Below, in pieces: positions 8,581 through 60,065 of a stretch of DNA of 64,000 bases (position 1 is the first letter of the stretch; every line of letters starts with the position of its first letter). The notes under the pieces are model-generated. The model saw nothing but the letters and a program-made list of their open reading frames with translations, did not search any database and had not been told where the DNA came from. Source of the stretch: Brachycybe producta (Eukaryota > Arthropoda > Diplopoda > Playtdesmida > Andrognathidae). A program made the translations under genes and the position numbers. The stretch covers positions 15,476,842 to 15,540,841 of the forward strand of contig JAUPFP010000001.1 of NCBI GenBank assembly GCA_036925085.1, given 5' to 3'.

Positions 8581-8691
8581 CTTCATTTACTTTCTCTACA
8601 GCATCCCTTGACATTGATGACATGGGGTTATCTTTTATTTTGGTGCATGGATGCCCAAGCACTTTAGAAATAAGTGAGCTACCTAGCAAAG

Positions 8692-9471
8692 TGTAACGTC
8701 TCGCCGGACCGTTATAATACGCGGTAAATGAAACTTCAAAAATGCTCGCACTTACTGGTAACAGAGCTCCGACGACGGGGACGGGAACGTACCCGCAGCT
8801 GCCTCTCCTCACGATGCACCCCTTGGGTGGTGTCGACGTGGAGCTTCCCTCGACGGTGACACGACAGTGGCACGCCGCCTCGCCGAGAATATCGCAGTGA
8901 AACTCCTGTTTCACCGCGAGCCGACACGATTTACCGGCCGAAAGAGGTCGGAAAAGACGGTGGAGTTGACCCAAACCGGCAACCCACCCTCCCACGATAA
9001 ACCCCCAAGACAATACACGACACAAAGTATAAAATGACGAATAAGTGTTTTAATTTACACTTCGGTGATAAACGGTGGCAGTAATATGTACAAGAAGGGG
9101 CTGGTCCGTTTGACCAGCCCACAAGCACTTTATACAAATAAAGGCCAACAGGCCAAATGCAAAATAGAGATGAAGATGCTGGACAGTGGAGGTCTCCTTG
9201 ACCTCCACCCACAGGTCTAGTCAAGTCAGCCGCCTACAACCCACTGCCCAGATCCTGTGGTTGACTAGGCCACAGGACACCTCCAGGCAACTCCACCTGG
9301 AGGGGACAGAGGTCACATCTGACCTCTCACCCATAGACTTCATGGTGAGAGGTCTGCTGGCACCAAAATGGCATCCAACCTAACAGCCTACTGTAGCTGT
9401 CAGGCAGACCACCATATGGAAATTCGTCTACTCAATCAAAATTTAAAAATTGAGCAGACCAGGTTGCCACA
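8692..9471 (-). repeat. 3' LTR of element A1 (780 bp)
   Basis: It has TG...CA ends and the same length and sequence class as the LTRs at 30893-31670 and 59284-60065. It includes GGGCTGGTCCGTTTGACCAG and a polyadenylation-like AATAAA on the minus strand near the R/U5 area. Confidence 0.8.
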
Positions 9472-9796
9472 ATCCTCTCAACTTCCCTGTTCCGTCTCGG
9501 GAACAGGTCAGTCGAGCCAGCCAGGATTGCTCCCCGAACCAGACCTTCTTAGGTTCCGGATGGCTTTTCTGGCGGTGTCGCGAAATTGGAGCCCATCCAC
9601 TCCGCAGCCCACCGACGTACCCACCACAGGCACATCTGGGTGTTACGCCACCCAAAACCAGTGTCGAAGACCGTCCCCTAAGACGGCTTTCCTCCAGGGC
9701 TCGAAATTCCTCGAAAGGAATATCCTGGAGTTGCGGACGTGTGCGAAGCGTCCGACTTGTTAGGAGGTCCACCAGGGCAACCGCGGGCTCGGTCTC

Positions 9797-15171: not shown

Positions 15172-18100
15172 GTTAGTTTCATAATTTCATTTCTAGTGAG
15201 TAGTGAGAGAAGTTCAAAAGTTAAGCCCTTTACGTTCAAAGTTCCATTGTCTTTCCGTAGCAAAACAATGTCAACAAGAACCCAGCCACCTGCAATGACA
15301 TTTTGCAGTTGAACATGACCTTGCAAAATAGTTAGTCTTAAAGGGCTCCTTGGCACACTTGCCATGGAACATGTTCATGTGATTCACTATCACGATTTTT
15401 TTTGCTTCACGTGGTGATGAGTGCCAACCACTGCCTGCTTGTTATTCGTGAGCAGTCACACCAATAGACTGCATTGGAAAACATAGCCTTACATTTTTTC
15501 TTGTTAAAAAAGATCTCAAGTATATTTGTACTCATGGGACAAAAGTTTTTTTTTGTTAACTGATAATATATTTCACATTATCTTTCTTATGTTAACTGTT
15601 TCATGTTAAACGGTTGCCATTGCATTAGAACTATTAGAATTATCCAAGAACACTTTTCTGGGAATGGTTAATGAGGCACCAAAACACATTCACCAGATTA
15701 TGCCTCAAAATAAAAGATGGCAGAGTCCAGAACTATGTTAGAATGACACATAAATTCGGCTTTGTCAATGACGTCATTATATCAACCAAAACATTAGCTG
15801 CCATTGCACATGGATGCTTTTCTGTGCGATTACATGGTTTGCACGCTTTCACTCGAGAAAGTGTTAGTGTAAAGCCAGTGAATGGTAAAAGTAAAGATTG
15901 TGGCCAGTCACATAGGCAACTCCTTATGAGCATGCTGATTTTAACACCGCGTGCTTTACCAGACGTTAATTTTCTTTATGATTTGCACAGGATATAAAAA
16001 TGGAAGTAACTAAACCACGGTTACTAATTTGTTTCTCCTTATTGTCAGAAATTGACCTTTCCAAATATGCTGAGCATAAAGCAAAGATACAAAACTTATT
16101 TCTGGATTTCACTGGGCATCATTTGCTGATCGGAATAGTTGGTGCTGATGGTGAAATGCCTGTAGATGTCATTTATTTAAACTGGAACTCTAAGAAACCG
16201 AAATCTGCAAGTAAAATAAAGGTGAGAATGTCATACATATAATTTAAATAAGAGTGGAATGTGCTTCTCTGTGTCCTTAAGTGTTTCTAAGATAATTAAC
16301 TAGTGGGGTAACGGGGTAGCAAAATTCACTGGCAATTGTACCCATCAGTAGAATTTCTTTTCGTCCGCCCTTTTATGACGTCAGACCAAGTAACAAACCA
16401 ATTAGAAATTGATGACGTTCATAAAAGGGCTGAACAAAAGAAATTCTAATGCTGGGCACAATTGCCTATGATAAACTGTAGTTTAATTTTGCTACTATTA
16501 TCCCCTTCCGTTTTTTATATTTGAAAGAGAAAATGAGTTTTTCATTTTCTCTGGTGTGCACATGCGCGTCGTTTGTTCCTTTTTTTTACTCCTTTCATTT
16601 CAATTTCAGTCACCCCTTCCACGTTTTTCCCCTCTACATTTCTCTCTCTCTCTCCCCCTTTCTACACTTTCCAACCTTTTCCCCTCTCCAATTTTATATC
16701 ATGGGGTTCTTGGATGGGGAATGTGCAACATATAGTTGACCTTGAGAAAAAAAGTGGTTCATTTTAGGGCTGGGCCGGTTCTGCATTTTGGAATACTTGC
16801 GAGGAAGTATGAAGTCATCATTGAGTGTAACGAAGAAATTACAATTGCTAATAAACTCAGCTACATTAGTAAATACCTAAATTTGCTTTAAATAAAGGAA
16901 AATTGTCATTGGAATTTAAAATACAGTGCTCTAGTAAATGTAATTTTAGGTTCTGTATTGCACAGTCTCCACCATTTTATTTGCATGTTCAATTGAAATG
17001 TAAAATAATTTTTGCTTCTGGCAAGGGAAAAATATCTAAGCCCCCCCCCCCCCAACAATGAAATCCTGCCTATGCCCCTGCATAGACTTAAATACCGAAG
17101 AAAAGGATTCTGAAAAGAACTTTTCAGAATACTCTAATTGTTCCATTACAAAACAAAAAACAAACTTGACCAATCAATTAATTGACCATTGGTTGCAAAA
17201 CTTATTAGATATATGAATCATCTTCATCATTAGAAAAAAATATATAACCCCGTTGACTTAGTGTTGCTGCTTACCAGGGAGATCTTTTTATTTTAAGGGG
17301 TGGCACTGTGAAGAAAAGGACCACAAGCCCCAGCGAGATGTTTACATTGTGGTGATCAGCAGTTATTCGTTTTCTCCTTTAAAACCATTTTCAGTAACTT
17401 AGTGCATGACCGTGCATGTTTTCAACCGCGCACACGGGTTATTTAGTGTATATATCGTTATGTCTTAACTTGTAGATTATCTGGGTTATGATTATCTTGT
17501 TTAATTGTTTTTGACTATGTGTTTTCTGGTTGTGTATCATTTCATGTACTTTGCAGTTCATTATCATGTACCAATTATTTTATACTGCATATATAAAGCA
17601 TCCACATTCACCACGACAGTAATGGTCAGTAACCCAAGCCTCTGTGTTCACCACTACAGTAATGGTCTGTAACCCTCCATATCCTTCCAGCCTTTTCCTT
17701 GCAAAGGTAGCGTTTACGAGCAAATTTGGGGTGCCTTCAGCGGCTGCTATCAATGTGGACGGTTTGTCTTGCTAGTCATCTAACTCACGTTGAACCCCAG
17801 CGTTCCTCTGGATCGTAAACAGACACTTGATCATTTGGACAAGCTTAGGTGTTCTGCAGGTTTCGACCTCAGGCAATTCCTCTGGCAAATATAGTGGTGG
17901 ACCTCCTGGTCAATGCAAGTAAATAAATTGATGCATCAAATAAATAAAACTATTCAAAATGTAATTTGCAGTGTTTGTGTTGAGATTATTCAAATATTCA
18001 ATTTATTAATAAAAAAAGTTGTGCAATAACTACAACAGTTGTGTGTAGCAACCACAACAACATTCTTATCTATAATGAAAGAGAATTCAGCTGTGCATAA

Positions 18101-20555
18101 CTAGGTCAACTCTCTGTACAGTGGTACAGTGTGGAGACAAAGTTCTGCACGATACTCCAAAAAGAACCGTGCCGGGATCGCTCGTGCATTGATTGTTTAA
18201 ATTTCGTAAAAGAGAAAAATTCACTGTGTTTAAAAAATTAAGAAATATTCCTGGAAAACAATTTAGAAATTTGATTTAAATCATTTGCTGTTTTTTTTTA
18301 ATTGTTTGGAATGTCATATTGAATTGTAAACTTCATCATCATTTTGTCACTGTTCTTGTGGTGTTGTTTTGTGTTGTATCTGGTATTGTGGATTTTATAA
18401 CAGATATTAATACTTTTAGTAATGAGCAATTTTTTATTTGTTACAGGGTCATAATATAAGTGCTATTGCATGGGATGCAAGAGCAGCTGATGAAACTGCC
18501 ACTGGAGCTGTTTTAGTAGGAACTAAGAAAGGTAACATACAATAAAGTTAGTCAAAAGGTGTGGTTTTAAAGTGGAAAGACTCCTCAAATTCTCCCTTTT
18601 CTGTTTTTAAGAAGTAGAATTAAAAAGAACACAAAAGTATTCTAGAAACTAGAAGCGTGGTGTAATCACTTTAGGGTATTTTCATCTTGATGTCTTTTAA
18701 AATTATCTTTTTATGTTTAAAAATGAACGAACACAAAGCTAGAATATACTTATCAGACGATATTTTTTTAATTTTTGTCTATTGAAAGTTATTAGCAAGG
18801 ATTCTGAAAGATATCAACATAAAAATGCTATTAACGGATTCAGCTACTGTTTTAGTTTTGAACACACCTTCATTTTCTCCTTATAGCCTTCCTAGAGCTC
18901 AATAACTAAACTTCTGAACACTTAAATTCCAAAAAATTGAAATAATATTTTAACTGGTTGCCAGTAATCTGTTCAATAACTTTAGATTCTGAAAGTATCT
19001 TAAATAAATTTTCTTTCTGAGTAAAATATGAAAACTTTGAAACAAATTTTAGATTCTTATTTCAGAAAACGGAAAATTGAAATGTAACTCTGAAAATACA
19101 TATTCAAAACATTAAACATTTCAATTTTTATCTATATGGTGCTGATTTACATAGGAGTAGGTCTCCCCTATGGCCACCATAATTTTGAAATACCATGACC
19201 AACATTGTATGATCAGCTTAGTGTTTTCTGTGTCGTTTCCCCCTTATAAAGTAAATTTTTATGGCTTTAGAAATTGTTTTTGAATTTGTAAAACAGATGA
19301 TAAGTAATTTAAACATAATGAAATTCACACGTTGTTTAACGATTTAGTCTAGATATAAAATGTTTTCTCAAAACGTTTCAAGTGATAACATGGTTTTGGC
19401 ATTGGTTGGCACACTAAGGGTATGTGTTCACGGTCGAACAATAGGTTACAATACAGGTGTGTTCACTGGCACACAACAAAACTGTTTCACCAGTTGAAAG
19501 AGTTGTGGAGAGCCACAACATTGCAACAACCTTTTTGTCTAATGACTAGCATGTGCCAATGCAAATCCTGCATCCCTGCACCAAGCAGGATATCCACGTA
19601 CTTAGATGCCGACAATGTCGGACCGGCAACTGGCTGCGGTTTAACAAAGCCTTCCCTTCATCATCATCCATGAGTCAGTAGTAGAACTGGCCATCAATGA
19701 TCATAGCCAGAAACTATCGACCATCCAGCATTACCAGAGCAAAACCCGGTAAATAATGGAGCTCTGGCCTTCATCAGGTATCATCCGAGCGACCTGTCCC
19801 TTTGCCGCAGCAAAAGGGCAGTCATATTTCAGGTGTCCCATTTGATGGCACCCATAACAAGGACCTGACTGGAGTTGTGTCCCTCCTGATGCTTGGCCTG
19901 TACTTGGAGGCATTACTGGCAGATGTTCTCCACCAGAACCCGGCTGCTTTCGTTGCCTTGTCCAACTTGGACGGCACAGCGGCCTTTGCACCCGGTGCAT
20001 ACAGAGACAAAGACTTGCTAGAGGTCTTAGTGCTAGCCATGGTACCAGGGCTTTAGGCAACTGCCCGGTCTTCTGGTACCCCACGAGTACGGGCGGATAA
20101 TCTACTCACCCTTAGCTTATCGGCCTCGACGAGCTATGCCTCTTTGGAAAATGCTAATACTGTTCTCACTTTACAACCGAACATCTGTTTGGTTATTGAG
20201 GTCAAGAGTTTCCACTTGAAACGGATGAGCCGACAGGTCTCCCATTCGAACGGATACTTGTTTTGTCATCTCTCTAAAGCACGGGTAGAATGCCTGAACA
20301 AACTTGGTCTGACCCTGCTTCATTGTCTCAAAAGTCAAAAAGCAGATACGAGCCTGGTCATCAGAACATCTCCATTCAGGTGATGTCTGGACGAAACCAC
20401 CACATGAGAAAGTACTCTTCTACAGGAAAATCAAGTAGGTACATAAAGTAGCTGCACCTGGCTGCATCTGTCCAGCACTGAGCCTTAGCTTTGAACTTAC
20501 AGAAAACTGGCGCCAAATCCTCCTGGCCATTATAGCAGGTGAATGAGTGGACTGC

Positions 20556-23600: not shown

Positions 23601-26600
23601 CATCATTATCATCGACATTACTCGAATCGTCAACATTTTCACCCATTACAGGGAAGTTCACATGTACTAGCACAGCCTCACTAGATTTTTTTAGCAGTAG
23701 CAAAATTTGTGACTTCAGCAACGGTGGAAGCAATAAGATCTAGATATACTGAACATTGTTCACTATCACTCACCCCAGTAGCCATTTTACTGTATAATAA
23801 GTACAGAATCTCACTAAAACTTTTATATTAAGAATGACTATTACAATTCCGAGTTTAAGAGAAAAAAAAAGCACAATAAACATGTAAATAACAGTGAAAC
23901 TTAATTTACACTGACACTACTATGGGCGCCGCCATCTTGGATCTCTTCTATAGATCTATATACGAACAGAGCAAGGAAAAAAACACGTCCTTCCTCTTGA
24001 GAAGCGAGAATTTATAGAACCAAAATGCCTGAATTTTTTTAACAGCTGGAGCGGGCGTCCTAGCAGCAGTACTTATCTGCTAGGTAGCCTACTCCGCTTC
24101 CCCGAAGTTTCAGTCTCGGATTCAGCTTCCAAGGGCTCTGCCATATTAGATCCTTGGCTGCTGTCCGGGTGGAGGAACTTTCCAGCCAATCCCGACAGGA
24201 TATGGTCGAATTCTTCCCTGAGGAGTTCGCTCACTGGTTTGCACTGGTGGTGCCTCTCTTCGTGTGCCTTTCTGTACGGGCAACGGTAAAAACCGTGGTA
24301 CTTATACCGACTGGGACAGACGTCCTTCCAACCGAAGAACATCTATCCCGTAGGCAATCTCTCTGAATTGCTGCTCGGGATGCATAGTCAATAAAGCCCT
24401 TGCCTTCCGAGCAGTCTCTACGGGGACCTCCACCGTCTCCTTCAGGAGTCTACCATCATGTTCCACCGTACGTGTGATGGTGGAAATGTGGACTCCTGGT
24501 CATAACTGAGTTCCAGGCCCTTATGGACTGCCTATGGCTTCACCATCAGGTGACAAGTTTGCCAGAGATCATGTCACTAGTGTGCCTCCACACTGACCCA
24601 ATCCTCCTGTGGAAGTTGGCCCCATAAAACACCATCTATGGAAATTTCTTCTACAGTGGACTCACCATTCACACCGCTGTTAAGTGCCACCACTTCCAGT
24701 GCCACCCCACCTTTTGCCCCACAGAGATGGTCAGCATTGCAATAGTGTAACACCCCGGTAACTCACCCAGCCGGACTCCGTAGGGGATGGGAGTGCAGCA
24801 ATAGCCACCCTCTTGCACTGCCATGTCCAGGGTGGTGCCGGCGAACCCAAGTCTGCTCTGCCGAATGTCGACGGCCGCATGATTGTCAACCCACGCTTGA
24901 AACCAGCACATGAAGTACCGGCCGACAAGATGGAAATGGGACGGTGAAGACACGGGGACTCCCAACCGTGAACGCCCACCCTCTTGGTGATTTCTCCACA
25001 AAATAAGGTGACACGACCACAGTGAAGTAAAATAATATAAATGAAGATTTATTCAAATATAAACACTTAGTTATAATATACATGAATCTGCTGGACCACT
25101 TGTCCGGCAGAGAACAACCCAAAACAGCAAACAAAGAAGAAAGCACATGGCAGGCCTCCTTGGCCTGCAGCATCTCGTTGAACTTTCCACTTCCAAGAGT
25201 CTACGCTACACTGCTCAGAATATAATGGTGGCTGCCATTATGAGGTTCATGTCGTCTGCTGGGCTGCCTACTATAGCAGACCTAGCAGACATCAGGATTT
25301 AGTCTGCTGCTTCTTCTGGGTCTTCACAATCCTCTCAACTTCCCTGATCAGCCCCGGGATCAGGTCAGTCAAGCAGCAAGGATTGCTCCTGTGAACCCTG
25401 CTCAGGCTTCTAGGATGACTTTGTCGGCGGTGGAACTACCGGAGCGCACGTACCCACCACAGGCACATCCGGGTGTTTCTCCACCCGACTCCAATATCAA
25501 AGTCAGTCCCCCTGAGTCTCGCCGCCACAGTATAAGGAGAGACAGTAGCTGCAGTTGGTGTCGTTGCCTTTGAAGTAGTAGGCGACCAACAATGGAGGCT
25601 GAAAAGTAGTTTTGAAGGGTGGCTCCATCTGGTAGTGTAGATGTCTCATTGTAAAATTGCAAAAAAAAGTTCATTTATTTGCGCTAGAGCAGTAAGACAG
25701 TAGGAAAAAGAAAATAAAATTTAATTATTCATAGGGTTGGATAAAATAAACAAAACTTTATCAATGTAGATTTAAATTAGAACTTTTTTAATTTTAACTT
25801 TTTACCTTTTTTAATATAAAAAATATAATTAATTAATAATTAACTCATTTTATTCATGTATTCAACTCATTATATAATTGCACAAATTAATTCTTACAAT
25901 TCCAAATTACAATGTGTAAAACAAAAAAAAGATTCTAGAATCCTAGTATTTATAGTTACAATCCAGTAATCTTAAGCAGCTTTCTATCTATTCTCTTAGC
26001 ATTTTTAATCTTACTGTTATACTTTTTCAAAGTATAATAGATAAGCATCCGTATGAAGTACACAAGGAAACTATGAAGTGGAAAATCTTTACAAAAGGGT
26101 ACATTGTTAATGTTGAGTTTTAAACGGCTCACAGTAGTTTCAACAAGGTTACTATTATGAAAATTGTTTAAAAAATCATTTTGTGTTAACGCCTCACACT
26201 GTTCAATAAAAGAAACAAAATAATGGGTAGGAACTGTTAGCCCTTCAAAATTACCCTTTTCATAAGAGTATGCTCGAAAGTGAGTGTAGAGCCTTGCAGG
26301 ATCATCTAGTTGTACATCATTTCCAACAGTGTTTTACTTACATTCTACACAATTAGAATGGTGTTTTATAGCATACATTGCTAAAAAGCCACAAACATAA
26401 AGAAAAGCATTTTTTCATCAGCATCTGGATTAAGAACATTCTGTGGTATTTCTTATAACAACATTTCTGATTCATAAAGTTCCTTTTGTTGGTCACCATC
26501 AGCTTCATTTTTAGGCAGAACTTCAATTGCTTTAACCAATGTCAATAATAGTTGGTTTCCATCATCAACACAATTAGATCCTTTGGATGGAGTTAGAAAA

Positions 26601-29600
26601 TTGTTCAAACAAGCTTGTTTATAGAAATGGATAAATTGTGCTGGTGTAGGGTTGTCAGAAAATCCTCCTCTTTGTCTCATAATACAAAAGAAATTCTCCA
26701 GCACATCTTGGTTAAGTCTCCTAAATGAAACAGCTATTATTTATTAATTTTGCTTTTTAGAATAAAAATTTACCTAGTTAAGAGAAACTGGAACCCATGG
26801 TTTTCTTGAAGAAATATCCATAGCTCCAAGAGTGCTGCAATAGAGACACCCAACCATAAAAGCACTTTATGAGTTTGCTTTTATTCCTGCCATTAATACT
26901 TGACACTTTCAATGTTTTCAGCCATGAAGCACATTCTTTCAGATAACTCACATGTAGAGAGCAATCTGAAATCCCAGAACTATAAATAATAATTAGTATG
27001 CATATTTAATGAAATTTCATACTTATATATTTCATGCTTGAGCTGTTGAAACAGTCATACAGTTTGTCAAACCTTTCTACAAAGTTTGCTGTTGCAGCAC
27101 AGTCTGAAGGCAAAGTTCCTGAAATATTAACAACAGCACTGATATAGCAAGGTATTTCTTGGATGAAACAAGTTATTTAACTACCATTAGCAATGTAAGG
27201 TGATATCCCAGAATTCACAGAATGGCTGAGAACTTGTGTTGCTAACTTCGCTTTCATTTTTGAGAAATTGTTCAGGTTGACATGCTGAATGGAGACCCTT
27301 GGAGCTTGTTTAAATTCCATTCCCATATCCATAGTAAAACATTTTTCTAAGTGCTCCCATTTAGCAGTTTGGTTGTCCCATGTTACATGATTGGCACGAA
27401 GGACATTACATGCACTTTTAATTAAGTGTGGGGGGTCAAAAAAATAAAATATTTTTTCTATCCTTCACAAAATAGGGGGTTTCGAAAGAGACATTCATTT
27501 TTTTTCGATAGTTTGAAGAAGTTACTTCCCTGACCGGTCACTACTGCAACTACTTCCAATGACACCTCATTGGCCCAATCGATGCATTTCATCATCATAT
27601 CTTTTACAGTAGATGATGCAGCGGTGGTAGAAGTAAGCACATAAGCAATAGGTTGGTGCCACTTTTTCTTTATTTCACTGAGCAGAAACGCCATTGCACT
27701 TCTGGCTGGATCATTAAATCTTGTACCATTTCCATAATCTTCAAATCCAACAATTTCATCTTTTTTCTTGCTGTAAAATTTGATTGCCATTTCATCAATG
27801 CATAGAGTGCATATCTTTTCTTTTGGGTCCATATTTTTTACTTTTTCATTAATGCTGTTTTCAAATCATCATTAAACCCAGGTTCAATTTTTATTTTGTC
27901 AATAAATCTGTGAAGGACTGTAAGTGATGGCAATTTAAAAATTTTCCGAGAAACTTATACGCTTTTGAAGAATTGGAACCAAATATCATATGAGCTATCT
28001 AATTTAAAAAAATTAACTAGAGAATTTCTTTGTACCCTGGTTTGCTTCTTCAGTAGAATTTCTTTTTTTCATTTCAGTTTGTGGGTGTCTTGTCAGAGGC
28101 CGTCGAAGCTTATTATTCTTTTTAGAATGTTTTATATGAAAAATTGTTGGGGCTGCATTCCATATAAAGCTTTTCTTTTGTCCATTCATGAACATGGAAT
28201 CTTCAAAGTCATTTTGGCATAAGAATAACTTCCTGTTCAGATCCGCTCCAATTTTCTTCAGCAAATCCTCTCTCCGGCAATTTATGACCCATAGCTTTGA
28301 TCTATAATTACTTTACACAACAATGAATTTAACTGCTATACTAACACCACATTAAGAAATAATTAGTACTGTTCATACGAATTATACATTTTTAAATATT
28401 TTTTATTTTACATTATGAAGTATTTTACATGTGTAATTGATGGCAACCTTGTAAAAACAAACCATTGTTTTTAAAGAAAAATTGATTTATTTATTTAATT
28501 ATATTTTTTCAATCAAATTCATTTCAAATCAAACAACTCTGGTTAAACATCATGTTTATCACAGCCATGTGTATCAAACTCACATTTGAAATTACACCTG
28601 TATTCTAGTCATGCAAACACAAATAATAAACAAATAAATTAAATACCTATTTGCATCCTTGGGAAATGTAAAAAATGACATATTTTTGTTTTCCTTTCTG
28701 TTCCCACACGGCACAATGACGTCCGTTGGACATCCAATGGGTTTAGTCAATGGATTATCATGATATCCAGTGGACCTCCATGAATATCCCAATTGCCTTT
28801 ATTAGATGTAATGTGGATGTCCGTATGTCCCACCTATGGATGTAGATAGAACATCCATTATGGATGACTGTGGATATCCAGTGTGCATGTCATGGATGTA
28901 GGTAGAACATCCATCATGGATGACTGTGGATATCCACTGTGCATGTTGTAACAACCCGACTGGGTGCTACAACAACCCCGGCAAGTTTTCCCCAACTTAC
29001 CTTCGCTGACTTCCGTTGGGACGGGCCTCAGCACGGGCCAGCCCTCCTCTCGTCCGTCAGTGAACACGGGCAACGTTAGATGGATCGTCCAGTCCCACCA
29101 CCAGGGCTGCCTCCACAGCTTGAGCTGTCGCCACACCCTCCCCTGTTTCCAGGGCAATGGGTACGTCGGCGATGTTCTCAAGCCATATCTTGTAAGAGCC
29201 TTCTTCTGTGGCTTCGGCAATTCCTGCCACCGCCAACAGACCCCGGCCACCTAAGGCTTTACGATGGGGCTCAATGAGAAGCAGCTGTCCAGGGCCAGCA
29301 TGCTCTATCAGACTCACGTGAACCACTTTCTGTTCATGAGCCGATAGCCAAACGTTCTCCAACAGTCGCAGGGAACAAACTTCCCCGCTCCTAATTGGAG
29401 AACTGGTCTCAGCGAGATTGGTCAACCCACCCATCCACCTTTTCAGGCTCCGCAGGCATTCCTTCCAGTAACCCGAAAGGAAGGAGTAGCAGAGGCTCTA
29501 CAGAATCGTGAAGCTTCGCCAACGCCTCCAACAACGAGTTGGGAAGTTGTACCGTTAGTACCCTGCAAAGCCTGATCGGCCAGTGCGGCAAGAAGAGCAT

Positions 29601-32600
29601 CCGGATGTGCATTCCAGATGTCTTCCCGGAAATAAACTTTCCGGCTCCCGATGTCCAACATCAACCCAAACCGGGAAGCCAGGTCAACACCTATTATGGA
29701 TTCCCCTTCACCCTCAATGAGAAGATGGGTTCGTATGGACCGTCCGTGGATTGCCATGCCCACGTACACAACTCCTATCGCGATGGAGTACCTGTTCATA
29801 CCCATCAGGCATGAGGGGAGGTTAACCTCCTGCACCGGTAACCCCATCTCCTGTGCCACCGACATGCTCATTACCGATACCTCGGCACGGTGTCGACGAT
29901 CGACTCAACCAGCCGACCCTCCATCGACACCAGAACACGCGGTGCCCCACGCAAATACGCACGGCTTTGCAGTTTGGGAATGGGCAACCGTCGTTGCCCG
30001 ACATCACTTTTTCGAGGCTCATTCGTTCTCAATTCCACATGGGATGGTCGTACCGGATGCTCTGGGGCCTGGCTTCTAGTCTCCACACCGGGAGACCCAC
30101 CAGGCCTCGGTTACAGCATGGGCGCACCAATGCTCGAAACCCTTGTAATGCCTGTACCGTTCGGACCTTCCTCCCCACTATCAGGGAAGAAAGGTGCCAC
30201 CCAGCTCTCCAGCTGGGCAAGCGCAGCTTCCAGTGTGGGCATTGCTCTGGAAACACCCAACGGGTAATTTCTGGGTCCGCAGACTTAGCCAGAGGCACCC
30301 CTGCTTCATGCAGGATACCCACATATCTGGAGACTGCCCGAAGGTACGCTCCTTCCTTACTTCGCCGGCATTGCCAGGCACCTGAGTTTTTAAGCAATAC
30401 CGGTCGACTGCAGCTCAGTTCTACAGTGACCGGTGCCGGTTTGACGAGGGCGGGCCCTCGTCTCTGGCAACAGGCAGATAGAACATCTGTATCAATTATG
30501 GTGGACAGATACTACCGGCCCTGCAGTACCATGGGTGCTAGACCCGGCATGTACCGCACCACTGGGCTTTCGCCCGGTGGTACTCGAGCAACCTGTCCTT
30601 GGGCAACTGCCTTCTGACAGTCCTTAAGGTGATCCATCTGGTTACACCGAAAGCACGGACCTGGTTGTCTACGAGTAGGACCTCCACCTCCACCTCCTGT
30701 GGACTTATTTCTACCCTGGCTCCGCCGCTTCATTTTTTTACCCTTCTGCCCTCCGGTCTTGGCAGTAGCTCCGTCCGATTTGGACGGTGCCGCTGCCTTT
30801 GCCCCCGAAGAGGTAGAAGCCGACAAAGCAGAGCTCTTGGGCTGTGCCACAGCACCAGAGGCCTTGGCCGCAGCCTGGGTTCCTGGTACCGTTGTGGCAA
30901 CCTGGTCTGCTCAATTTTATATTTTGATTGAGCAGACGAATTTGCCTATGGTGGTCTGCCTGACAGCTACAGTAGGCTGTTGGGATGGACGCCTTTTTGG
31001 TGCCAGCAGACCTCACCATGAAGTCTATGGGTGAGAGGTCAGATGTGACCTCTGTCCCCTCCAGGTGGAGTTGCCTGGAGGTTTCCTGTGGCCTAGTCAG
31101 CCACAGGATCTGGGGAGTTGGTTGTAGGCTTTGAATCTGACTAGACCTGTGGGTGGAGGTCTGGGTGACCTCCAATGTCTGGCATACAGTCTCTTTGTTT
31201 GCCTTTGGCCTTGTGGCCTTTTGTTTTATCTAGTGCCTGTCTGGTTGAATTAACCAGCCAGTGGTGTAAATAATACTGCCATCACCTTCGTTCATCGTAA
31301 GTGTAAATAAAACACTTAATTTTATTTCATCTTACTTTGTGTCCGTGTCGTTTATTTGGGGAGTACCGCGGAGGGTGGGTTTCCCCGGTTGGGGCAACAC
31401 CACCGTCTTCACCGACTTGTTTCGGCCGGTACTTGTGTCGGCTCGCGGTAGAACAACGGTTCTACCGCGATATTCTCGGCGTGGCGGCGTGGTTTTCGTC
31501 CGTGTCCGTCGAGGGTGGCTCCAAGGAGCCGACACGTCTCCAGGAACACCGTGGGAGAGGCGGCTACGGGTACGGTCCCGTCCCTGTAAGGAGCCGCTTA
31601 GCGGTAAGTTTTACGTCCGTTTTGGGATTGAATTTACCAGGGTATTGTAACGGTCCGGCGGGACATTACACCGTCAGGGTACGGGCAGGTGACGCTCCCG
31701 CTATCAGCATGTTGGCCTCGACCAACATTGCCTCAGTGGTAAAGTCCCTTTCTGTCTCGGCCTTCGATCCCCAAAGAGGTCTGAGAATCTCCGGCTGTAG
31801 TTTCTTCTTGTATCAGAAGAGTCGATAAGACATACTCACCAGGAGAAACTCGTTCCTCCAGCTGAACAAAGCGCCAGTAGAATGCCTGGAGTTACTCCGC
31901 AGGCCCTTGCTTCATGGCCTCGAAACGGTCAAAACAGGCCTGTGCCTGATTCTTAGTCCCAAAGCGGTGAAGCATAGCCTGGCAGGTTCGGCTAGAACTC
32001 CACCAAACAGGCGTAATGTTCTTCACCCGGACCATCCAGCAGGTACGTAAAGAAACTGCACCTGGCCTCATCCGTCCAGCGCTGAGCTTTGGCTTCGAAC
32101 TGTCGGAGAAGAGGCGTAATGTCCTCTCGTCCATCATACCGAATGAACGAGTGAACCGGGTTAAAAAACCCGAACGCCTGAATCTCCGACGGGACAGCTG
32201 GTGCAGGCATCCACAGCACGGTGCTTACCCGCCGTGGTGCCCTTCTCCGGTTCCCCGAAGTCTCAGCATCAGGATCAGCATCCACGGGATCCACCGGGCG
32301 GAGGATCTTTCAGACCACCTCCCGCAGGAGCGGTCCGGGTTCCCCCTCCTGGAGGCATTCGCCCGGCCTGAGCCGGCGGCGCCTCCCTCTGTGCACCCAC
32401 GGTGCACGGGCGACGGTGTGAACTCCGGTGGCCCCTCCATGGGAATTGCACCCTGCAACCGCAGGCGGTCAATCCCACGGGCAACCGACCGGAGTTGCTC
32501 TTCGGTCATCGACGCCAACCATGACGCTGTGTCCACCGAACTGGCACCCGACTGGGACCTCTCCTCTTCACGTAAGAGGCCACCTCCTGGTCCAACTGGA

Positions 32601-35600
32601 CGGGAGGCGGTAGAGGTTAACAGGCCGGCCTTTGGCCGTCCGCCTGTCCCAGCCGGGGTCATCGCAACCCCGTCTTCACCGTCTAATGGTGCTCCACCGA
32701 TGACACTGCCCCCACGGTGCGGCCACACCATCACAGTCTCCGGTTGGAGGTTGGTCCGTAGGGACACCCCCTACAGCACCTACCTCCGTGGAATCACCGT
32801 GTCTGTTCCCGCCCACAGCACCCCCAACCGGGTGCTGCCTCACCGGCCGACTACCACGGCCGACGGTGTGGGAACGCAACTCCAAACCTTCCAACAAACT
32901 GCTTCCCCGACCAGACATCGGGAAAACAGGGTCTTGGCCGATTTCGTCCGTGCGAACACAGGCAAAACTGGCCACCACTTGTCGAAAGGGTACCCTACCG
33001 TAAACTACGGTGAATTTAAAGACAAAAGTCTGCAAACACCAACAATTAATGGTAGAACCGTAAACTACCGCAGTTCCACGGACAAAAGTCCGTGTCTCAC
33101 GGTCAGATTTACGGTGGAGTCTCCTTTTTACCGTTTTCGACCGGTGATGTACGGACAACCGTTCGTTATTCACCGTCTATTTGCGGTAAACAGCCCTTCA
33201 CTATCCTCGAACGGAGATACATGGACGACGGTCCGTAATCTACCGTCCACCAATGGTGAGACCGCCTTCTTACCGTGTTCGAACGGTGATTAACGGATAA
33301 AAGTCCGTAATCCACCATCTACTTACGGTAAAACTTGACCGTAACCCGGTTTTACCACGGTATCACGGACAACGGTCTGTGTCCCACGGTATATCACCGG
33401 TAAACCTGGCCGTAGACGGGTTTCCGCCGTAGTCCTACGGACAATAGTCCGTGCCCTACGTTGTACCACCTGTCCACCGGACAAGCTATGATTAAGTACC
33501 GCTATCCCACGTGGGGACGGTCCTGCACGGTCAACCACCGTGCCCACTGCCCTACTTATGGATAGCCTAGGGCTTTCCCCGGTAACTACCGCAGTATCAC
33601 GGACAACTGTCCGTGTCCCACGGTCCTTCACCGGACTACTATGCCCTAAGCCACGTTCGGCCGTAGTTCCGTGGACAAATGTCCATGTCCTACCGGCACA
33701 CACATGACTCCGGTCGAACCGACCACACAAGAGAGACTGGCGGTAGCGCTACCCGGCGCCTCCACCAATTGTAACGACCCGACTAGGCGCTACAACAACC
33801 CCGGCAAGTTTTCTCCAACTTACCGTCGCTGACTTCCGTTGGGACGGGCCTCAGCGCGGGCTAGCCCTCTTCTCGTTCGTCCGTGAACACGGGCAACATT
33901 GGGTGGAAGTCTTTCCCGATGATCAACGGTCGAAGAACCACCGAACCGTACGGAGAAATCACGGTAAACCCCCGATGGATCTTACCGTGCTTTTCGACGT
34001 GAAGCACCGGCTGACATGACGAAACACATGCCGGAAACGGACTATGAAAGACAGCATAACCTCGCCGTAAACCCCCACCCTCCTCGCGGTAACTTCCCCC
34101 ACAATTATTACAAGAGTAATAAAGAAGACACAGACAACAGTGAAGTGAAAATATACAAGAATATAATTTATTCACACAAAAGCAAATGAATAAACACTTA
34201 CTCAATTAAAGCAATAAATCTCCTGGTTATTCCAACCAGGAGATAAGGTGCAGAACACCCACACAAGCACAAGGCAAAAGATGAATGGTGGCCATCTTGG
34301 CCACTTGATGAAAGAGCACTCAAAACAAACACCTGCACACAGCATAAGGGTTTAACTCACTGCCCATATAATAATGGCCACTGCCATTATATACACCCCC
34401 AGGCTGCTCCACCTGGGGAGGACAGTGACCCTTGCTGGCCATTTTGTTGTCTGCCTGGCAACCAATTTGAGGTGCCTAGCAGACGACAGCAGGTATTTTG
34501 TTTTGCTCTCCAAGAGAGCAAAACTGGGTCGTCACAATGTCATGGATGTAGGTAGAACATCCACCACAGATGACTGTGGATATCCAGTGTGCATGTTATG
34601 GATCTCTAAAGAATTTTTCCCAGAACATTGTTATTACATCCAGAAGATGCACAATGGATGTCCAAGGCTTCATGTAGAGCAGTGTTTCTGAAACTGTGGT
34701 CTGTGGCCCTCCAGTGGACCGTGAGGTTCCTTCAGGTGGGCTGCAAACAAATCCAAAAAATGATCAACGTAAGTTGAACAATTTTTGGATTCTTTTGCAG
34801 CCGAATGAATATATTCATTGTGAGTGTAAATTGTCAATGACAAAACATTTGATACATGAATTTCACACTATAGTAAAATTATTCACCTTATTATTTTTTT
34901 ATTTTCATATAAGAGTAAGAGCATAGATAAGTAGTTACAGCAAAGGACTTAATAAAGAAACTGAAATACAAATGAATAATGAATGTCAACTTACACATGA
35001 AATTAAGATTTTTTCCATGAACCATCAATATGTAAAACCATTTAAAATGCTTCTTTTTTAAAAGTTTTAAAAGTTTGCAAGTCTGTGCTCTTTTAGCTGT
35101 TAGTCGTTCTCTGGCTGTGTAGCTTTATTAATTGAGAAAAACCAACAGTAAAAGTTGATAAGGTTCGAAGGTCACTGAAGACCTGTACGTTAAACTCAAA
35201 TTGACTCAATAACCATTTATAAAAAATATTTTATTTAAACATAGCAATTGCAGTAGATTTAATATGAAAATGAAATAATATAAAATCCCAAATACCCATA
35301 AGCAAGATTCAAGAAAAATAACATGCCTGATTACATGCAAAAATATTCTTTATATTATATAAAAATGAGTACTTAAAATACATATTAAAGAAACAATTAA
35401 GAAGTGTAGTGACTTACAATACAAGTAGTAGAACCTTCATTGCAGATAGCTTCCAACTTTGACAAAGGGAGGCTTAGTACATTTTTCAGTTTTATTTCAG
35501 AGATACTTTCTAATAAAAAAACCAACAATCACAAAATTATGGTAACTTATGTGACTTCAGACAAAAAGACCGACAATCCAAAGATTATGGTAACTTATGT

Positions 35601-37200
35601 ACTGTGAGACACAAAGACCGACAATCCAAAGATCATGGTAACTTAAATGCCTGCTGACAAAAAGACCGACAATCCAAAGATCATGGTAACTTAAATGCCT
35701 GCTGACAAAAAGACCGACAATCCAAAGATCATGGTAACTTAAATGCCTGCTGGCAAAAAGACCAACAATCCAAAGGTCATGGTAACTTAAATGCCTGCTG
35801 ACAAAAAGACCGACAATCCAAAGATCATGGTAACTTAAATCAGAAAGACCATCCAGTTTCCAACTGAAATATACCAAGCTCCTCCTTGTCACTCCAGTTC
35901 AAGATTCTTCTGAGAGAAAGGTTGTTGGAGGCAGGTCATCTGCCACATTTCTTGCTTTTAGCCAAAATGTTGGCCTTTTCATATAAGTTTTTTTTTCATA
36001 GAGAATCATTGGCGCCTTGTGATTGGTAGATGAACTTTTAGCACTATTAACCTTATTTGCATATGAGCTCGACAATATTTTTTATACAAAAAGTTGACAG
36101 TAATAAATTTATAACCATGAGAAAATATATTTAAGTTGGGGTCTTAAATACATTCTCAAATGTGGATTGGGAGTATTTGAGAACATTTCCTTTTGGAGTT
36201 CTATAAGTTCTCATGCCCTCTTGTGACCCTAGTTGAAGAGTTTCTTTTTGAGAATGATTAAAAATTATTCAACTTGTGGCAACCCACATATAACTTCAAT
36301 ATCGCTAACATGAAGCAATGTGAGTATTAATACAAGATAAATGATGGTAATATAAATCAACCTAACTTCCTTTGAAAAGGCAACCACCAGTATTTTCATA
36401 AATAATGTAACAGGGCCTTTATTGAAAAAAGGAGGGACTTAATTGCAACTTTGGAAGTGTGAGAATAAACTTGAGCTCTATGCAATAAAAGAAATAAAAA
36501 GAATACATAAGTATAATCTGCATAGGCCTAAACTTTAAAAAACCAAACTGATAGCTAAACATTAAAACACATTATATCAGTTCAAAATTATTTATACAAT
36601 GCCTATGAAATGATTTAAAATAGTAGGAAAAAGCATAAGGACATTAGAAGAGTAAGATAACCACAATAAAACAACTTGAAGAATGTATAAAACATAAAAA
36701 CTAAAAAAAATGCATAAAACATGCAAAACTTCTAATGTGAATAAACATGGAATATGAATAACATGGTACTCAATACACCTTAAAAGGTTTTTGTAAAGAA
36801 CTAGGAGGGGAGAAAAATTACTTTCCTTACACGTTTCATAAGAGGGGAAGAGTTTTAACAATAGAGTTAAATGAGAAAAGAGGGTGAGAGCTAAATGTTT
36901 AAAAAGTCATGGAGAAATCCTGGCTGTGTAGGCCTATGTTACAGATAGGCCTATCTAGAATTGTGTCTGGTTTTCATATAAACATGCTGAGAGTAAATGA
37001 AGGCCAGGACTTTTTATATTTCCCTAGTTTGCTGGACTTCTGTTTATTGGCAGAGGGGATATAATACTGCAAACAGGGGCCATATGAAATGTTAAGAAAA
37101 ATACTTCTATAATATATAAACAAGTAAATAAAACCAAAAAGTAAAGTTCATCAATCATTATATAACATCCTAATAAGCTTGTAAATATAATAAAATAATG

Positions 37201-37258
<58 letters not shown>

Positions 37259-40200
37259 TAATAATAGTATTGATACTAAAAATAATAATTCAATTAGTGG
37301 TAGGCTTAGTAGACCAAAAAAATATGCATTTTGCATTCTGAAATTTATGCCTATGTAGAATGAAAAAAAATCTTCATTCTACATAGCAAACATACACCCT
37401 TTTATGATCCAACATTCCAAAAGCCTTACCCAAACCCTCATTGCTTTTCCAAAACAGGATTATAGGGTAGTACGGGTGGTACTTTTGCCACCCACTTAAT
37501 GAAAACTTCCTTTTACAATCCTATATTACCTTAGGCTATGGTCAAGTGAAATACATGTATATACACTATACTTGTATAAGCATTTGCTATACATATCCAT
37601 AAGACATCTTGTGGATATCTTCTAAAATGAATATTTAATATCCAGACGATGTCCTTTAGATATAACGATGTACACTTTTGATATTCACAGGATGTCCAGC
37701 GGACATGCTGTGGTACATACATAAAATTAGTGTAAAAGTTTAAATCACTATGATATAAATAGTTACATATTTTATTATAACCTTAAAATTCGTTAATAAT
37801 GATAAAATTAATTAAAAAATTTTAAAAATTGATTTTTTTGATGACATCAGTGAGCTGTCTTAAGGATGTCCAAATTATCCCAGGACGTCTTGGACTTATT
37901 GTGGACATAACAGGACGTCCTGTGGATATTTTGTGCTGTGTGGGTTGTTATGACAATTAATTGCTGCACAATAGCATCCACCAGTAATTCGAGGAAATTT
38001 CAATAAAAAATAAAGCTTTAATAAGTACGTGGCATAAGCAACTTGTTGATTTCAGGGACTGGTACACATCCACCACTAGGTGGTGAATACACATAGATGC
38101 GCATGCACATTGATTCTTTGTCGCCACTTTTCAGCTACTGGAGCTACTGTCTCTTCTTATACTGTGTTGCCACCTCTTGCTGTCAAAATTCATCAATGGC
38201 AAGATTGGCTAGTTGCGGACCCGTACGAAGGGTCCGACTTGTTAGGAGATCCACGAGGGTGGCTGCGGGGTCAGACTTGCGCCCTCTTGGTTGGGTAACA
38301 AAACTCAACCATCTCCTAAGTCTCATCCAAGGAGGCACTGGATGTATGGTGCCGCGAGGTGGGATAACCAAATTATCCCGTCTCCTGCCCCCATCATGTC
38401 GAGAACGGCATAGCCCCTCCTCACCGGGTTGACAGCCAACAACACCGGATAATCTCTACCACCAAAAGCAAGCACATTCAATTCAATTAGATACACCTGC
38501 AATCAGCTTGAAAGCCATGTGACAGGGGGGATTGCTCCCAATCATGAGTGATTTTCATTATTTAAAAATAAGATATCACGAAATTGAAATCGTCCTAACA
38601 AAGAACTATTCACAGGAAGAGAATTCTATAGTCTAACAACATTAGAAATAAAAGACCAAAAATATGCATCAGTCCTAGCCATTAATTCTTTGAAAGTCTT
38701 TGAATGCCAAAATCTACTTTACGAGGATTTCTAGTAAACCATTAAGCAGAGTAATGTTATCATCAGACAGCAAACATCCCAGAAGAGCGAGGCATTTCTT
38801 CAGACTGCTAATACTTCCCATTCTAGCTCTTGAAGCATAGATGATACGCTCTCAGTATATGCACACCATCCCTTTACAAATCTTGCAGCCCTACGCTGCA
38901 CCATTTCTATTTCTTTTAAGTTATTTCTAAATGGGCTCTAAATTGGGGAACAATATTCGAAGATAGGTCTAGCTAGGGTAAAGTAGCAGACCTTCTTTAC
39001 ATTTCCATTACAATTATTATTTTTTAGCTTTTGCAACTGCTTTGGTTATATGATCTTTCCAAAGCATGGACCATGTTAAGCCAAGATATTTAATGGTATC
39101 AACATGAGTTAGCTGAACATCTCCCATTGTATAATCTGCCATGCAAGATTCTCGCTTTCGGAAAACTTGCATAACATTGCATTTACTTCTATTGAGTTGT
39201 AAATGCCACTCAAGAGCACCATTCTTCAACACTGTCTAGATCTCTTTGGAGGACTTCACTATCCTCATTATTCCTAATTCTCCTGTACACAACAGCATCA
39301 TCTGCAAACAAGAGCATCATACTGTTGCATCTATCTGCCAGATCGTTAATGAACAGAAGGAAAAGTAGTGGTCCAAGAATGCTACCCTGAGGTACACCAG
39401 ATGTTACTTTAGCCCAGTCCGACACAGCACCATCAATTTGGACTCGCTGTTGTCTATTTGATAAGAATGATGATGTCTACGAAATTACTTGTTTATTTAA
39501 GTTAAGTCACCATTCTTTTAATTAGTAGTGAATACTTCACTGTATCAAATGCTTTTGCAAAATCTAAAAATACCAAGTCAAATTCGCCTTTACTATCCAA
39601 GCCAGATTGTATGTCTTGGATCAATAGTGCTAACTGGGTATCACATGATCTGCCTTTTCGAAAATCATGCTGGTTTTCATGAATTAATTTATGGGTTTTT
39701 AAATGTTTGATTGTATTAGAATAAATTATATGCTCGAGTCTTACATACAATGGAGGTTAGAGAAATGGGTCTATAGTTATCTCCTGTTTTAAAAATTGGG
39801 CAGATATTTGCTTGCCTCCATGCTATAGGCAGTATGCCTCTAACAAGGGAATCTTGGAAAAGTTTACTTAAAAAAGGGCTAACTTCTGTGGCCATCTCCT
39901 TTAGCAAACGTGGCGAAATTTCATCTGGACCAGCAGATTTATTAACATCTAGATTATAAAGCAAATTTTGTAATCCAGTGGAGTTTATAATTATGTGAGG
40001 CATGACATGAGATAAGGTGCCAAGTTGAGGTTCCTCATCACCATTATTAGCATGAAAGATACTTTGGAAATAGTCATTAAGTGTGTTTGCAATAACCTGC
40101 TTGTTTGTACAGACATCACCAAGTGGTGTTATAATGGAAGTTATATTATTTGGAATTTTGTTGAGAGATTTTACATATTTCCAGAACAACTTGGGATTTT

Positions 40201-43200
40201 TATGGAGTGATACCCTTAAGACATTATTAGTAAAGTTCAAGTGTTCCTTTTTAAGCAAATTTTTCACATGATGTCGCTGGGAATTAAATTGCAATTTAAT
40301 AGTGTCATCCATGTTCATCTTCATTTTAGATCTAAATTTGCGTTGATTACGAAGAGTGCGGTGTATCTCAGTGGTGTACCAAATTGGTTCCATTCTTGAT
40401 TTTACATTTTTGCATGGGATGAATTTATTTATGCCATCAAAAATGACAACAAACAGTTACCACTGTTGGTTTACATCTTTTGATGGTCCACTTTTATTGT
40501 TCAGTTCATTTGTTACAAAAAGCTTAAAATTAGCCCAATCAGCTTTATTGTACTGAAGGACTTTTCGGAGAGCTGACTGGATTTTTTTAAATTGGGTGAC
40601 AAATTCTAAGTAAATCATTTTGTGATCGCTTGTGCCATCAGCAATTTGACATTTTCTGGGGTGTTTGTAAAAACTAGATCTAGAATATTATTATATATAT
40701 TATTATTATATATAATTTATTGCTAGGGCACTGGGAGTCAACAGTATAATTTTTCCAATTTAGCATGATGGCAATGATGGTGCCCATGGTACTGGGGTGG
40801 CTCTCCCAATCAATAGTACCCATGGTACTGGAACCCCTCCATTTTTGGCTGGTCCTGCCACAGACCAAGTCGGTTATTCAGAAAGACCTCTTTCTGAATA
40901 CGGAGGCGTGGCTCCAAAACATCGACCCTCGTCCTCGGGCTGGGGAGACCTGGAACAATCTTCCGGTCCTAGGGTTCAAAGACACCATCGTCAGAACTCG
41001 GAGAGAAGGGTGTCCTTCCCAAGGAAGGCACGGGACCACGTTTGGTCGGAACACTACTTGACTTCGCCAGGCTTCCCCCACCCTTAGGTAAAGGCGAGCT
41101 GACCTGGTGGAGAGTTCTAACTGACTGAACGAACAGGTTTGGTACCCCGACCACCTGTGGGGAGGATGGAGGCATGCCAAGAACCACATCGGTCTGCACC
41201 GTCATTACCTGACGGGTATTGTCCAGTTGGTTCCCGGCCGACACGCCTACGTGTCGGGACTCCTCGTCCGTTCCGACCCATCTGCCACCAGTTCCCTGTG
41301 ACCCTTGCATAGAAGTTCTCGAACCTCCCTTTTTCCCATGCTTGGACTTCTTGTCCTTTTTCTTATGGGAAGAACGTTCACTGTGCTTTGAGCTGGATGC
41401 ACCTGAGCTCAAAAACTTACTGGGCCGGTCTCCCCCTTGAAGGGTGGTGAACCCCCTTGGTCTGACCAGACTTGCCAGCCAAAGACTTCCTAGCCGAAGC
41501 TGTACTCGTCTCCGAGTTGGCTCCCGTAGCCAAACTGATGGCCGAGGATGACTGTGTCACCACGAAACATCCTCGATCATCTCTAGGAAGATTCTTCTTC
41601 ACCAGTGAAAGGGTTAGCTGACGCTTGCCACTAACAGTTTCAGCTGCCGCACCTTGGGTGGGTGCCTTGGCAGCTTGTATTGCCCCCTCTGGGTGATATG
41701 CTGTTGGCTAGCGGCAGTGGTGGCACTCGGAACCGGAGTGACACCATGCCTGACAGGAAGCTCCCCTGTTATGAGCAGATTCCGGACTTCAGCTTTCTGC
41801 AGGGGTGGAAACTGAGCGGTCTGGAGCTCAAACTCCTGCCGGCATTCGGCATTCATAGCCCTTTTTTAGCCTCGAACTTTGCCACTTGCACCCTGAGTTA
41901 TACCTGATTGATACCTGATGCCATTTTCGTTAAAACATTGGGCCTGTTATCATAAATTTATTTATACCTGTGTTGTAATTGTCACAGAAGTAAAACCTTA
42001 TTACAGTTGTCTAAATTTTCTTCTTCAAAAATACTTTGATTTGCTTTTTCAATGTCTTTTAAAGTACACTGCACAGGTGCTTTATTTTCCTGCCTCTCGA
42101 TATTGATCTTTCCAAGATTCAGCGGGAGTTAGGATCATTTTTTGGCCATTATGTAATTAAACCCGTTAACATCGACAGTACTGTGAAAATTAACAGCCAG
42201 GCCCCTTTTTGTTTGACGAAAAAGTTTTTCTTTGACTTTAGAGATACTTTCATATTAAATAATTTATTCAGTACATGTATTTATTACCGTAACATTCTTT
42301 TTTCACATTCACTCAGTATAATGTTAGAGTTCTTAATATTATGCGCACATTCACACAATAAGTGAAAAAAATCTAAGTTGTCTTGTAAGTCTCCGGGATA
42401 TATATTCATTCTTAGTCGAGACTGGTCATCTGTGTTTTGCGTGAGATCAATCATCAAGTAACTATATGGATCACGTGTACTCTGATTAAAGGGGTTGATC
42501 ATGAATTTCAGTGTTGCCAGGATACATCTGATGTGATAAATGAGCAATGTGAGATTTATCATGAGGTTTTTTAAAGTAATTAAGGAGCGTTCAGAGAAGT
42601 GGTGTGCTGATATGGGTTATTGTCAAAAATATTTCGATGATGTGATTCACACAAAGAGTTGGGAAATGCCTCTATCCACATCTTGAAAGAGATCATCAAG
42701 TACAATAAGGTGATTTCTACCACAACTAAAAGTCTTCATGTGGGCATTACTTTTAGAAATACCGCTCGAGTCCCATAAACTTGATACTCAGTGTTCTTTT
42801 TTAGGCACATCATCTTCCAGAGTTAAGAGGCCTGTTAAGTAGGTTAATTTCTGAAAAATATTCATAGAGGGTGCTTGCATTGTTTATCATGTATATAGGA
42901 CGTTATGGTTATTCTCTAATATGATTTACAGCTTATGTATATATGGCAATTTTTTGTGGGGGATGTATTAGAGGCTACAATGGATGTATATTCTCTTATT
43001 ATGTTTTGTTATGAAAACTGTATGTTTTACCTGCAAAATGTTGACCCACCATGTTTGTTTTTGGTGGGTGTAAGTGCTGACAAAAACTTAATTTTCTCTA
43101 CTTCAATGCATGCTAGAAAAAATCTGTTCAATCCAACTAAAAGATCTGGTGGAGTTTTATAAGTATCTAAAATGCCATGCTGAAATATTCATACACTGTG

Positions 43201-59283: not shown

Positions 59284-60065
59284 TGTAACGTTCCTCCGGA
59301 CCGTTACAATGCGCGGTAAATAAAAACGCGAAACGCTCTTACTTACCAGTGACAGAGCTCCGACGACGGGGACGGGACCGTACCCGCAGCCGCCAATCCC
59401 ACGGTGCACCCCTCGGATGGTGTCGGCGCGGAGCTTCCCTCGACGGTGACACACGACGATGAAACGCCGCCTCGCCGAGAATATCGCGGTGAAACTCCGG
59501 TTTCACCGTGAGCCGACACGATTTACCGGCCGAAAGAGAACGGAAATGGACGATGGAGTTTCCCCAAACCGAAAACCCACCCTCCCGTGGTAAACCCCCA
59601 AGAAAAACACACGGACACACAAAGTAAGTGATGAACAGTGTTTTATTTACACTTACGATGATTAGAAGCAGTGATGATTATATACAAGAAGGGCTGGTCC
59701 GTTTGACCAGCCCCAAAAGCACTTTATACAAATAAAGGCCAAAAGGCAAAACAAAGAGATGAAGATGCTGGTCAGTGGAGATCTCCTTGACCTCCACCCA
59801 CAGGTCAGCTCCAGTCACTTCCACAGCCTACAACCAACTGCCCCAGATCCTGTGGCTGACCAGGCCACAGGAAACCTCCAGGCAACTCCACCTGGAGGGA
59901 ACAGAGGTCACATCTGACCTCTCACCCATAGACTTCATGGTGAGAGGCCTGCTGGCACCAAAATGGCGTCCGTCCTAACAGCCTACTGTAGCTGTCAGGC
60001 AGACCACCATAGGGAATTCGTCTGCTCAATCAAAAAATTAAAATTGAGCAGACCAGGTTGCCACA
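59284..60065 (-). repeat. 3' LTR of element A2 (782 bp)
   Basis: TGTAACGTTCCTCC...GACCAGGTTGCCACA. Same family as 8692-9471 and 30893-31670. Confidence 0.85.

Follow-up and report, generated by a model that had tools for sequence, protein, structure and literature searches.

We analysed a stretch of 64,000 nucleotides from Brachycybe producta (GenBank assembly GCA_036925085.1, contig JAUPFP010000001.1, forward-strand positions 15,476,842 to 15,540,841; hereafter the window), which lies inside a 22-Mb contig (C1) of the 295-Mb genome and contains no N. Positions 24746-41888 of the window hold a nest of transposable elements: a long terminal repeat (LTR) retrotransposon remnant, E, is interrupted by a P-superfamily element, which is interrupted by an element with terminal inverted repeats (TIRs; hereafter the TIR element), which in turn holds the LTR retrotransposon B, and B holds a solo LTR of the A family. 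We consider it very probable, at roughly 0.95, that this cluster was built up by ordinary insertions, one after another, into the remnant of an old retrotransposon within an intron of VPS18. An earlier description, made from the letters alone (the sequence-only reading), had proposed a strictly ordered nest of five layers, and its order of E, P, TIR element, B and A is borne out by element ends, target-site duplications (TSDs) and empty sites. Its inventory was incomplete, having missed a long interspersed nuclear element (LINE) in E and an element, X, in the TIR element. We count seven insertions on branching lines, with the order shown along each branch: E, P, TIR element, B and A on the first, E and the LINE on the second, and the TIR element and X on the third. 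The features of the nest are as follows.

24746..25328, minus strand: LTR of E (the 3′ LTR of a minus-strand element), TGTAAC...TTCACA, 583 bp; from sequence and partial homology to the E relatives L011-L028
25329..25525, minus strand: first internal part of E, ending at the P insertion; homology to E relatives
25519..25525, no strand: left copy of the P TSD, TCGCCGC; empty-site comparison
25526..38166, minus strand: P-superfamily element, 3397 bp without inserts, TIR CACAGTATAAG(G/A)AGAGACAGTAGCT; from its TIRs and its THAP, RNaseH_N, GTP-binding and RNaseH_C matches
28703..37944, no strand assigned: TIR element, 1358 bp without inserts, ends CCCACAC(G/A)GCACAA; from ends, TSD and empty sites
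28947..34536, minus strand: LTR retrotransposon B, Gypsy-type by its gag, internally deleted; exact TSD ATGT/ATGT at 28943-28946 and 34537-34540
28947..29084, minus strand: left (3′) LTR remnant of B, its last 14 bp also matching internal B sequence (deletion junction)
30893..31670, plus strand (probable, judged by the A element at 8691): solo LTR of the A family, 778 bp; exact TSD CCGT at 30889-30892 and 31671-31674
33770..34536, minus strand: right (5′) LTR of B, 767 bp, followed inward by a primer-binding-like TGGTGGAGGCGCCGGG; sequence
35098..37383, no strand assigned: element X, 2286 bp, TGTTAG...TCTACA; exact TSD TAGC at 35094-35097 and 37384-37387
38167..38173, no strand: right copy of the P TSD, TTGCCAC; empty-site comparison
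38167..38477, minus strand: E internal part 2, between P and the LINE, starting with the right P TSD copy; homology to E relatives
38478..40764, minus strand: LINE copy in E, truncated at the 5′ side, with about 12 nt of the target lost; absent from the E copies L011-L028
40765..41888, minus strand: E internal part 3, ending where homology to E relatives stops (truncation)

Uninterrupted relatives of each container are present in the same genome and provide paralogous empty sites, so called because the flanks of an insertion, once joined, can be aligned to copies that lack it. For P in E, all 18 E loci read cover the site; a 7-bp cut leaves 17 of them gap-free within 20 bases and one with 1 nt, whereas an 8-bp cut, with the ends at 25528 and 38164 as given by the sequence-only reading, is gap-free in none and leaves 3 or 4 nt in all 18. 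The P element around the inner layers stands, with corrected ends and a 7-bp TSD. The two copies of this TSD agree at 5 of 7 positions, and both mismatches fall at CpG dinucleotides and are CpG transitions. An exact 7-bp TSD, ACAGGGT, flanks another P copy (L033), and the 8-bp TSD was rejected on the empty-site gap counts and the flanks of other copies.

TIRs of the P superfamily begin with CA, and its TSDs measure 7-8 bp. The CACAGTATAAG ends of the element match at 31 of 35 positions, and the pieces of its transposase are as follows.

26456..26740, minus strand: RNaseH_C (PF21789), E 1.6e-12
27180..27464, minus strand: GTP-binding insertion (PF21788), E 8e-12
27461..27865, minus strand: RNaseH_N (PF21787), E 1.5e-25
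28016..28312, minus strand: later THAP part (PF05485, profile positions 29-87), E 7e-5, 24.0 bits against a cut-off of 23.9
28646..28702, minus strand: THAP exon, part after the TIR insertion (NRKENKNMSFFTFPKDANR); sequence
37947..37982, minus strand: THAP exon, part before the TIR insertion (GGCYCAAINCHN); sequence

The PF21787, PF21788 and PF21789 matches all exceed their cut-offs, so that an RNase-H-like catalytic domain with a GTP-binding insertion is present together with THAP sequence, TIRs and a 7-bp TSD, the features of the P superfamily. A search for a solved structure matching the RNase-H piece found none. The transposase domains sit in separate open minus-strand frames, which may reflect frameshifts or introns. 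The TIR element splits the exon that encodes the first THAP part, while the close P copy L064 reads through; its unbroken THAP homologue (L064:3263-3451) matches profile positions 1-33 with E 9.6e-5 and 23.5 bits, just below the cut-off. After the TIR insertion the P copy in the window was presumably no longer able to make a whole THAP domain.

The TIR element ends in CCCACACGGCACAA and CCCACACAGCACAA and is flanked by an exact 2-bp TSD, TT, at 28701-28702 and 37945-37946. Its coordinates are those of the sequence-only reading, which had assigned a 5-bp TSD. The empty site in P is given by one close P copy (L029 and L064 denote a single place) and four distant relatives. In the close copy a 2-bp cut is gap-free and a 5-bp cut needs a 3-nt gap; among four other copies of the TIR element that were fetched, the three with both ends show the 2-bp TSDs aa, gt and ca; in L063 the first bases are altered. 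The 5-bp TSD was rejected on these two grounds, the gap count in the close copy and the flanks of the other copies.

Two LTR retrotransposon insertions, B and A, lie on the innermost branch, and for both the sequence-only reading was right in coordinates and 4-bp TSDs, as it was for the internal deletion of B and the solo state of A. With 100-base flanks, all seven TIR-element loci are gap-free across the B site. The LTRs of B have TG...CA ends and a 4-bp TSD, as Ty3/Gypsy LTRs do, and the B relative L040 has gag, CCHC and protease matches. The order of reverse transcriptase, RNase H and integrase in pol separates Gypsy from Copia. Two open reading frames (ORFs) scanned in the window copy gave no Pfam match, and no pol was found there. 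The left LTR runs only to 29084, where it meets internal sequence across an overlap of 14 bp. To the left of 29071, on the LTR side of this junction, none of the 39 other rows reaches, among the matches listed (40 of 1089 candidates), and therefore the deletion looks private to the window copy. We also observed that the B relatives L040-L059 are mostly near-identical to each other, which points to recent activity, and that the window copy stands about 9% away from them (53-55 of 600 positions), as would be expected of an old or separate B lineage.

For A in B, all 20 B loci read cover the site gap-free, and the joined query is covered end to end by 40 of 40 rows, among the matches listed (40 of 634 candidates). 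A is a single LTR with its internal region absent and one TSD flanking it; further genomic matches to the family were found among those listed (40 of 1778 candidates, the window copy included). Elsewhere in the window two A-type LTR elements (8691-11773 and 59284-62301) are 89% identical over 3.1 kb, and the one at 8691 has an open minus-strand frame of 673 aa (9800-11818) adjoining its LTR, without any Pfam match. An A-family LTR also lies inside another copy of the TIR element (C1:14344201-14345241), where the flanking matches overlap by 4 bases; this looks like an independent insertion of A into the TIR family.

The LINE belongs to a branch of its own. When its flanks are joined, the gap is 12 nt long in 14 of the 18 E loci and 4, 9, 16 and 18 nt in the remaining four; therefore the insertion came with a small target deletion. 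No TSD was found, and no direct repeat of at least 7 bases is shared between 38455-38500 and 40735-40790. Among the matches listed (40 of 1897 candidates), the LINE has relatives in the genome that match at up to 92% along almost its full length, and many of them begin at query base 1. Two further LINE remnants lie on the minus strand of the window (20778-22574 and 49808-51994). Each matches both reverse transcriptase and endonuclease; for the first of them the endonuclease score is below cut-off.

E itself is a remnant, consisting of a single LTR, adjoined by a purine-rich tract, and the neighbouring ORF region. Neither a second LTR nor a TSD was found, which leaves the outermost layer without a TSD. 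Its homology ends at 41888 rather than at the outer boundary of 41880 given earlier. The 18 E loci have no match between 41889 and about 53.8 kb. Beyond that point there are 80 E-locus matches; of the first 25, almost all are simple repeat and one lies near 54.0 kb. A continuation of E to the right of 41888 was rejected on the unmatched interval. From about 41915 the right flank is itself a repeat, with 38 further matches at 82-84% among those listed (40 of 470 candidates), and this repeat (41915-42380) may mark what truncated E.

The host assignment of the sequence-only reading is also supported, for the block as a whole. Matches to VPS18 exons flank the nest on both sides and on one strand, the second upstream match being weak and the downstream one lying outside the window.

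16027..16221, plus strand: VPS18 exon match, tblastn E 3e-4; PF05131 at C1:15492886-15493086, 31.5 bits, one in-frame TAA inside
18444..18539, plus strand: weak VPS18 exon match, tblastn E 0.019

The tblastn query was an approximate human VPS18 sequence. The downstream PF05131 match (C1:15549673-15550032, 40.3 bits, one in-frame TAA inside) is about 9 kb beyond the window end, and both PF05131 matches exceed the cut-off. Because such matches stand on both sides, the block 24746-41888 most likely lies in a VPS18 intron.

Across the nest, TSDs are exact for B, A, X and the TIR element. At the composition of the window, an exact match is expected by chance with a probability of 0.0044 for 4 bp and 0.066 for 2 bp, and these odds, together with the defined ends and the resumption of each container, make chance not credible. 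Several observations nonetheless weigh against the history of successive insertions. The empty sites are in paralogous copies and not at the nest locus of another individual; the TSD of P is imperfect and the LINE has none. The placement of the TIR element in P depends on the single close copy; the four distant relatives, with gaps of 2-3 nt for the 2-bp cut and 0-3 nt for the 5-bp cut, do not favour the 2-bp cut. The junction of B falls among tandemly repeated 56-bp units whose number varies; when the flanks are lengthened, six loci carry an additional unit, or two, within 40 bases, while one (L005) has a gap across the B site. At the X site, all four loci leave a gap of 4-13 nt within 20 bases. 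Finally, a naive LTR clock makes B older than its own container, as discussed below.

As for X, it is absent from three copies of the TIR element that read through the site (L061, L062 and L063) and from a fourth (L065), and the alignment of the first three places the gaps in a neighbouring indel beside the junction, not at it. It is a discrete repeat family with at least 69 matches in the genome, among the matches listed (40 of 173 candidates). TGT...ACA ends with a 4-bp TSD are the standard signature of an LTR. X has such ends and such a TSD, and no longer terminal inverted repeat is visible by eye; on its TG...CA ends and 4-bp TSD it is likeliest, and probably, a solo LTR. That X is instead a DNA transposon or another element with a 4-bp TSD is possible, at distinctly lower odds: it is long and contains a minisatellite, and no element with two X copies around retroelement genes was found, same-strand matches such as C1:16664090 and C1:16677573 being unread. 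The minisatellite has a 48-bp unit and occupies 35455-35888.

Next we consider age. The sequence-only reading held that the nest could be dated layer by layer, which is not supported, as differences to the nearest copy or family are only upper bounds on age. E differs from its nearest copies by 15-18% over the joined query, P from L064 at 158 of 2896 sites (5.5%), and the TIR element from one sister place (L003/L061) at 33 of 1121 (2.9%); other sisters of the TIR element differ by 2.2-3.7% per segment, with L065 at 6.3% in the left segment, and the window copy has 12 private changes in 960 columns. A is 12-15% from the seven best-matching relatives read, and because it is nested in a TIR-element copy about 3% from most sisters read, the divergence of the A family is not its insertion age. 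Without a partner LTR, A cannot be dated by clock. Nesting places the insertions of B, X and A no earlier than that of the TIR-element copy, and these are firm upper bounds.

The only LTR pair, that of B, shows 13 differences in 138 sites, with transitions making up 11 of them, and so appears older than its container (13/138 against 33/1121 for the TIR element, p = 0.0008). The inversion weakens when the 14 junction bases are left out (10 of 124, p = 0.007) and is not significant once CpG sites are removed as well (5 of 96, p = 0.17), with the masking applied on the LTR side only and the TIR-element side left unmasked. CpG decay and a small sample are the simplest account. A less likely explanation, to which we give perhaps one chance in several, is that the LTRs of B were already non-identical at arrival (a chimeric element) or that one was later converted from another B copy, with divergence that predates the TIR insertion; the first two tests speak for it, while the loss of the excess on CpG and junction trimming and the preponderance of transitions speak against it. 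For plants, the part of PMC7251063 consulted reports 4126 pairs of nested elements, in 1042 of which LTR divergence was greater in the inner one. The case here is like those in that B exceeds the LTR divergence expected from its container; it differs from what that part describes in being a single case, in having a DNA transposon as the container, and in an excess that is not significant after CpG and junction trimming.

The TIR element is characterised by ends CCCACAC(G/A)GCACAATGA, a 2-bp TSD without fixed sequence and subterminal 56-bp repeats. Elements of the CACTA/EnSpm (CMC) group have a 2-bp TSD, subterminal repeats and CACTR ends. The TIR element shares the first two features, its TSD falling within the 2-3 bp of that group; in contrast, its ends read CCCACAC, not CACTR. 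We do not file it there, because no transposase was found and the ends differ. No coding frame was found in the copies read, and L065 (7 kb), considered as an autonomous partner, showed no transposase-like ORF by eye among frames of at least 80 aa, which were not scanned against a library. Transib, prompted by the earlier 5-bp TSD, and hAT were both rejected on the TSD lengths of those superfamilies, the TSD here being 2 bp. It is improbable that an as yet undescribed transposase superfamily moves this family. At C64:709033-717664 we also observed four same-strand ends of this family about 2.8-2.9 kb apart, a tandem-like array of a relative of the TIR element.

A chimeric assembly, with unrelated repeats joined at their boundaries, is the least probable of the explanations we weighed: the region is almost all repeats and was judged from assembled sequence, not reads, but the window lies without an N inside a long contig, and TSDs at five insertions (that of P imperfect), with containers resuming after each insert, are unexpected of misjoins.

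Under the history of successive insertions, the LTR element E would have been the first target. A P-superfamily transposon would have entered E with a 7-bp TSD, and the LINE would have entered E separately. The TIR element would then have inserted into the THAP exon of the P transposase with a 2-bp TSD, splitting the DNA-binding domain, and would have received B and X, each with a 4-bp TSD. An A-family LTR element would have entered B with a 4-bp TSD and then been reduced to a solo LTR; we infer that LTR-LTR recombination reduced both A and X. A deletion would have removed the pol region of B together with most of one LTR.

Among known systems, the P element resembles the P superfamily (P element, 1360/Hoppel, Galileo) in its THAP and RNase-H-like transposase with GTP-binding insertion and in its short TIRs; unlike these, the window copy has interrupted frames and has been broken in two by another transposon. 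In TIR sequence it differs from the Drosophila elements. Its 7-bp TSD is shared with most Galileo copies of D. willistoni, three having 8 bp, in the part of PMC4168063 consulted.

The nest as a whole is a new instance with corrected anatomy and not a new phenomenon, an ordinary kind of genome fossil. It illustrates, as a worked example, how the containers in a deep nest of mixed elements set firm upper age bounds on their contents, and how paralogous empty sites correct TSD lengths misjudged by eye. REANNOTATE, as described in the part of PMC2672092 consulted, automates the reading of insertion order from nesting and derives age bounds from overlapping elements. The present nest is like the clusters resolved there in both respects, and it differs from them, as far as that part goes, in mixing DNA transposons, a LINE and LTR elements, with nothing new in principle.

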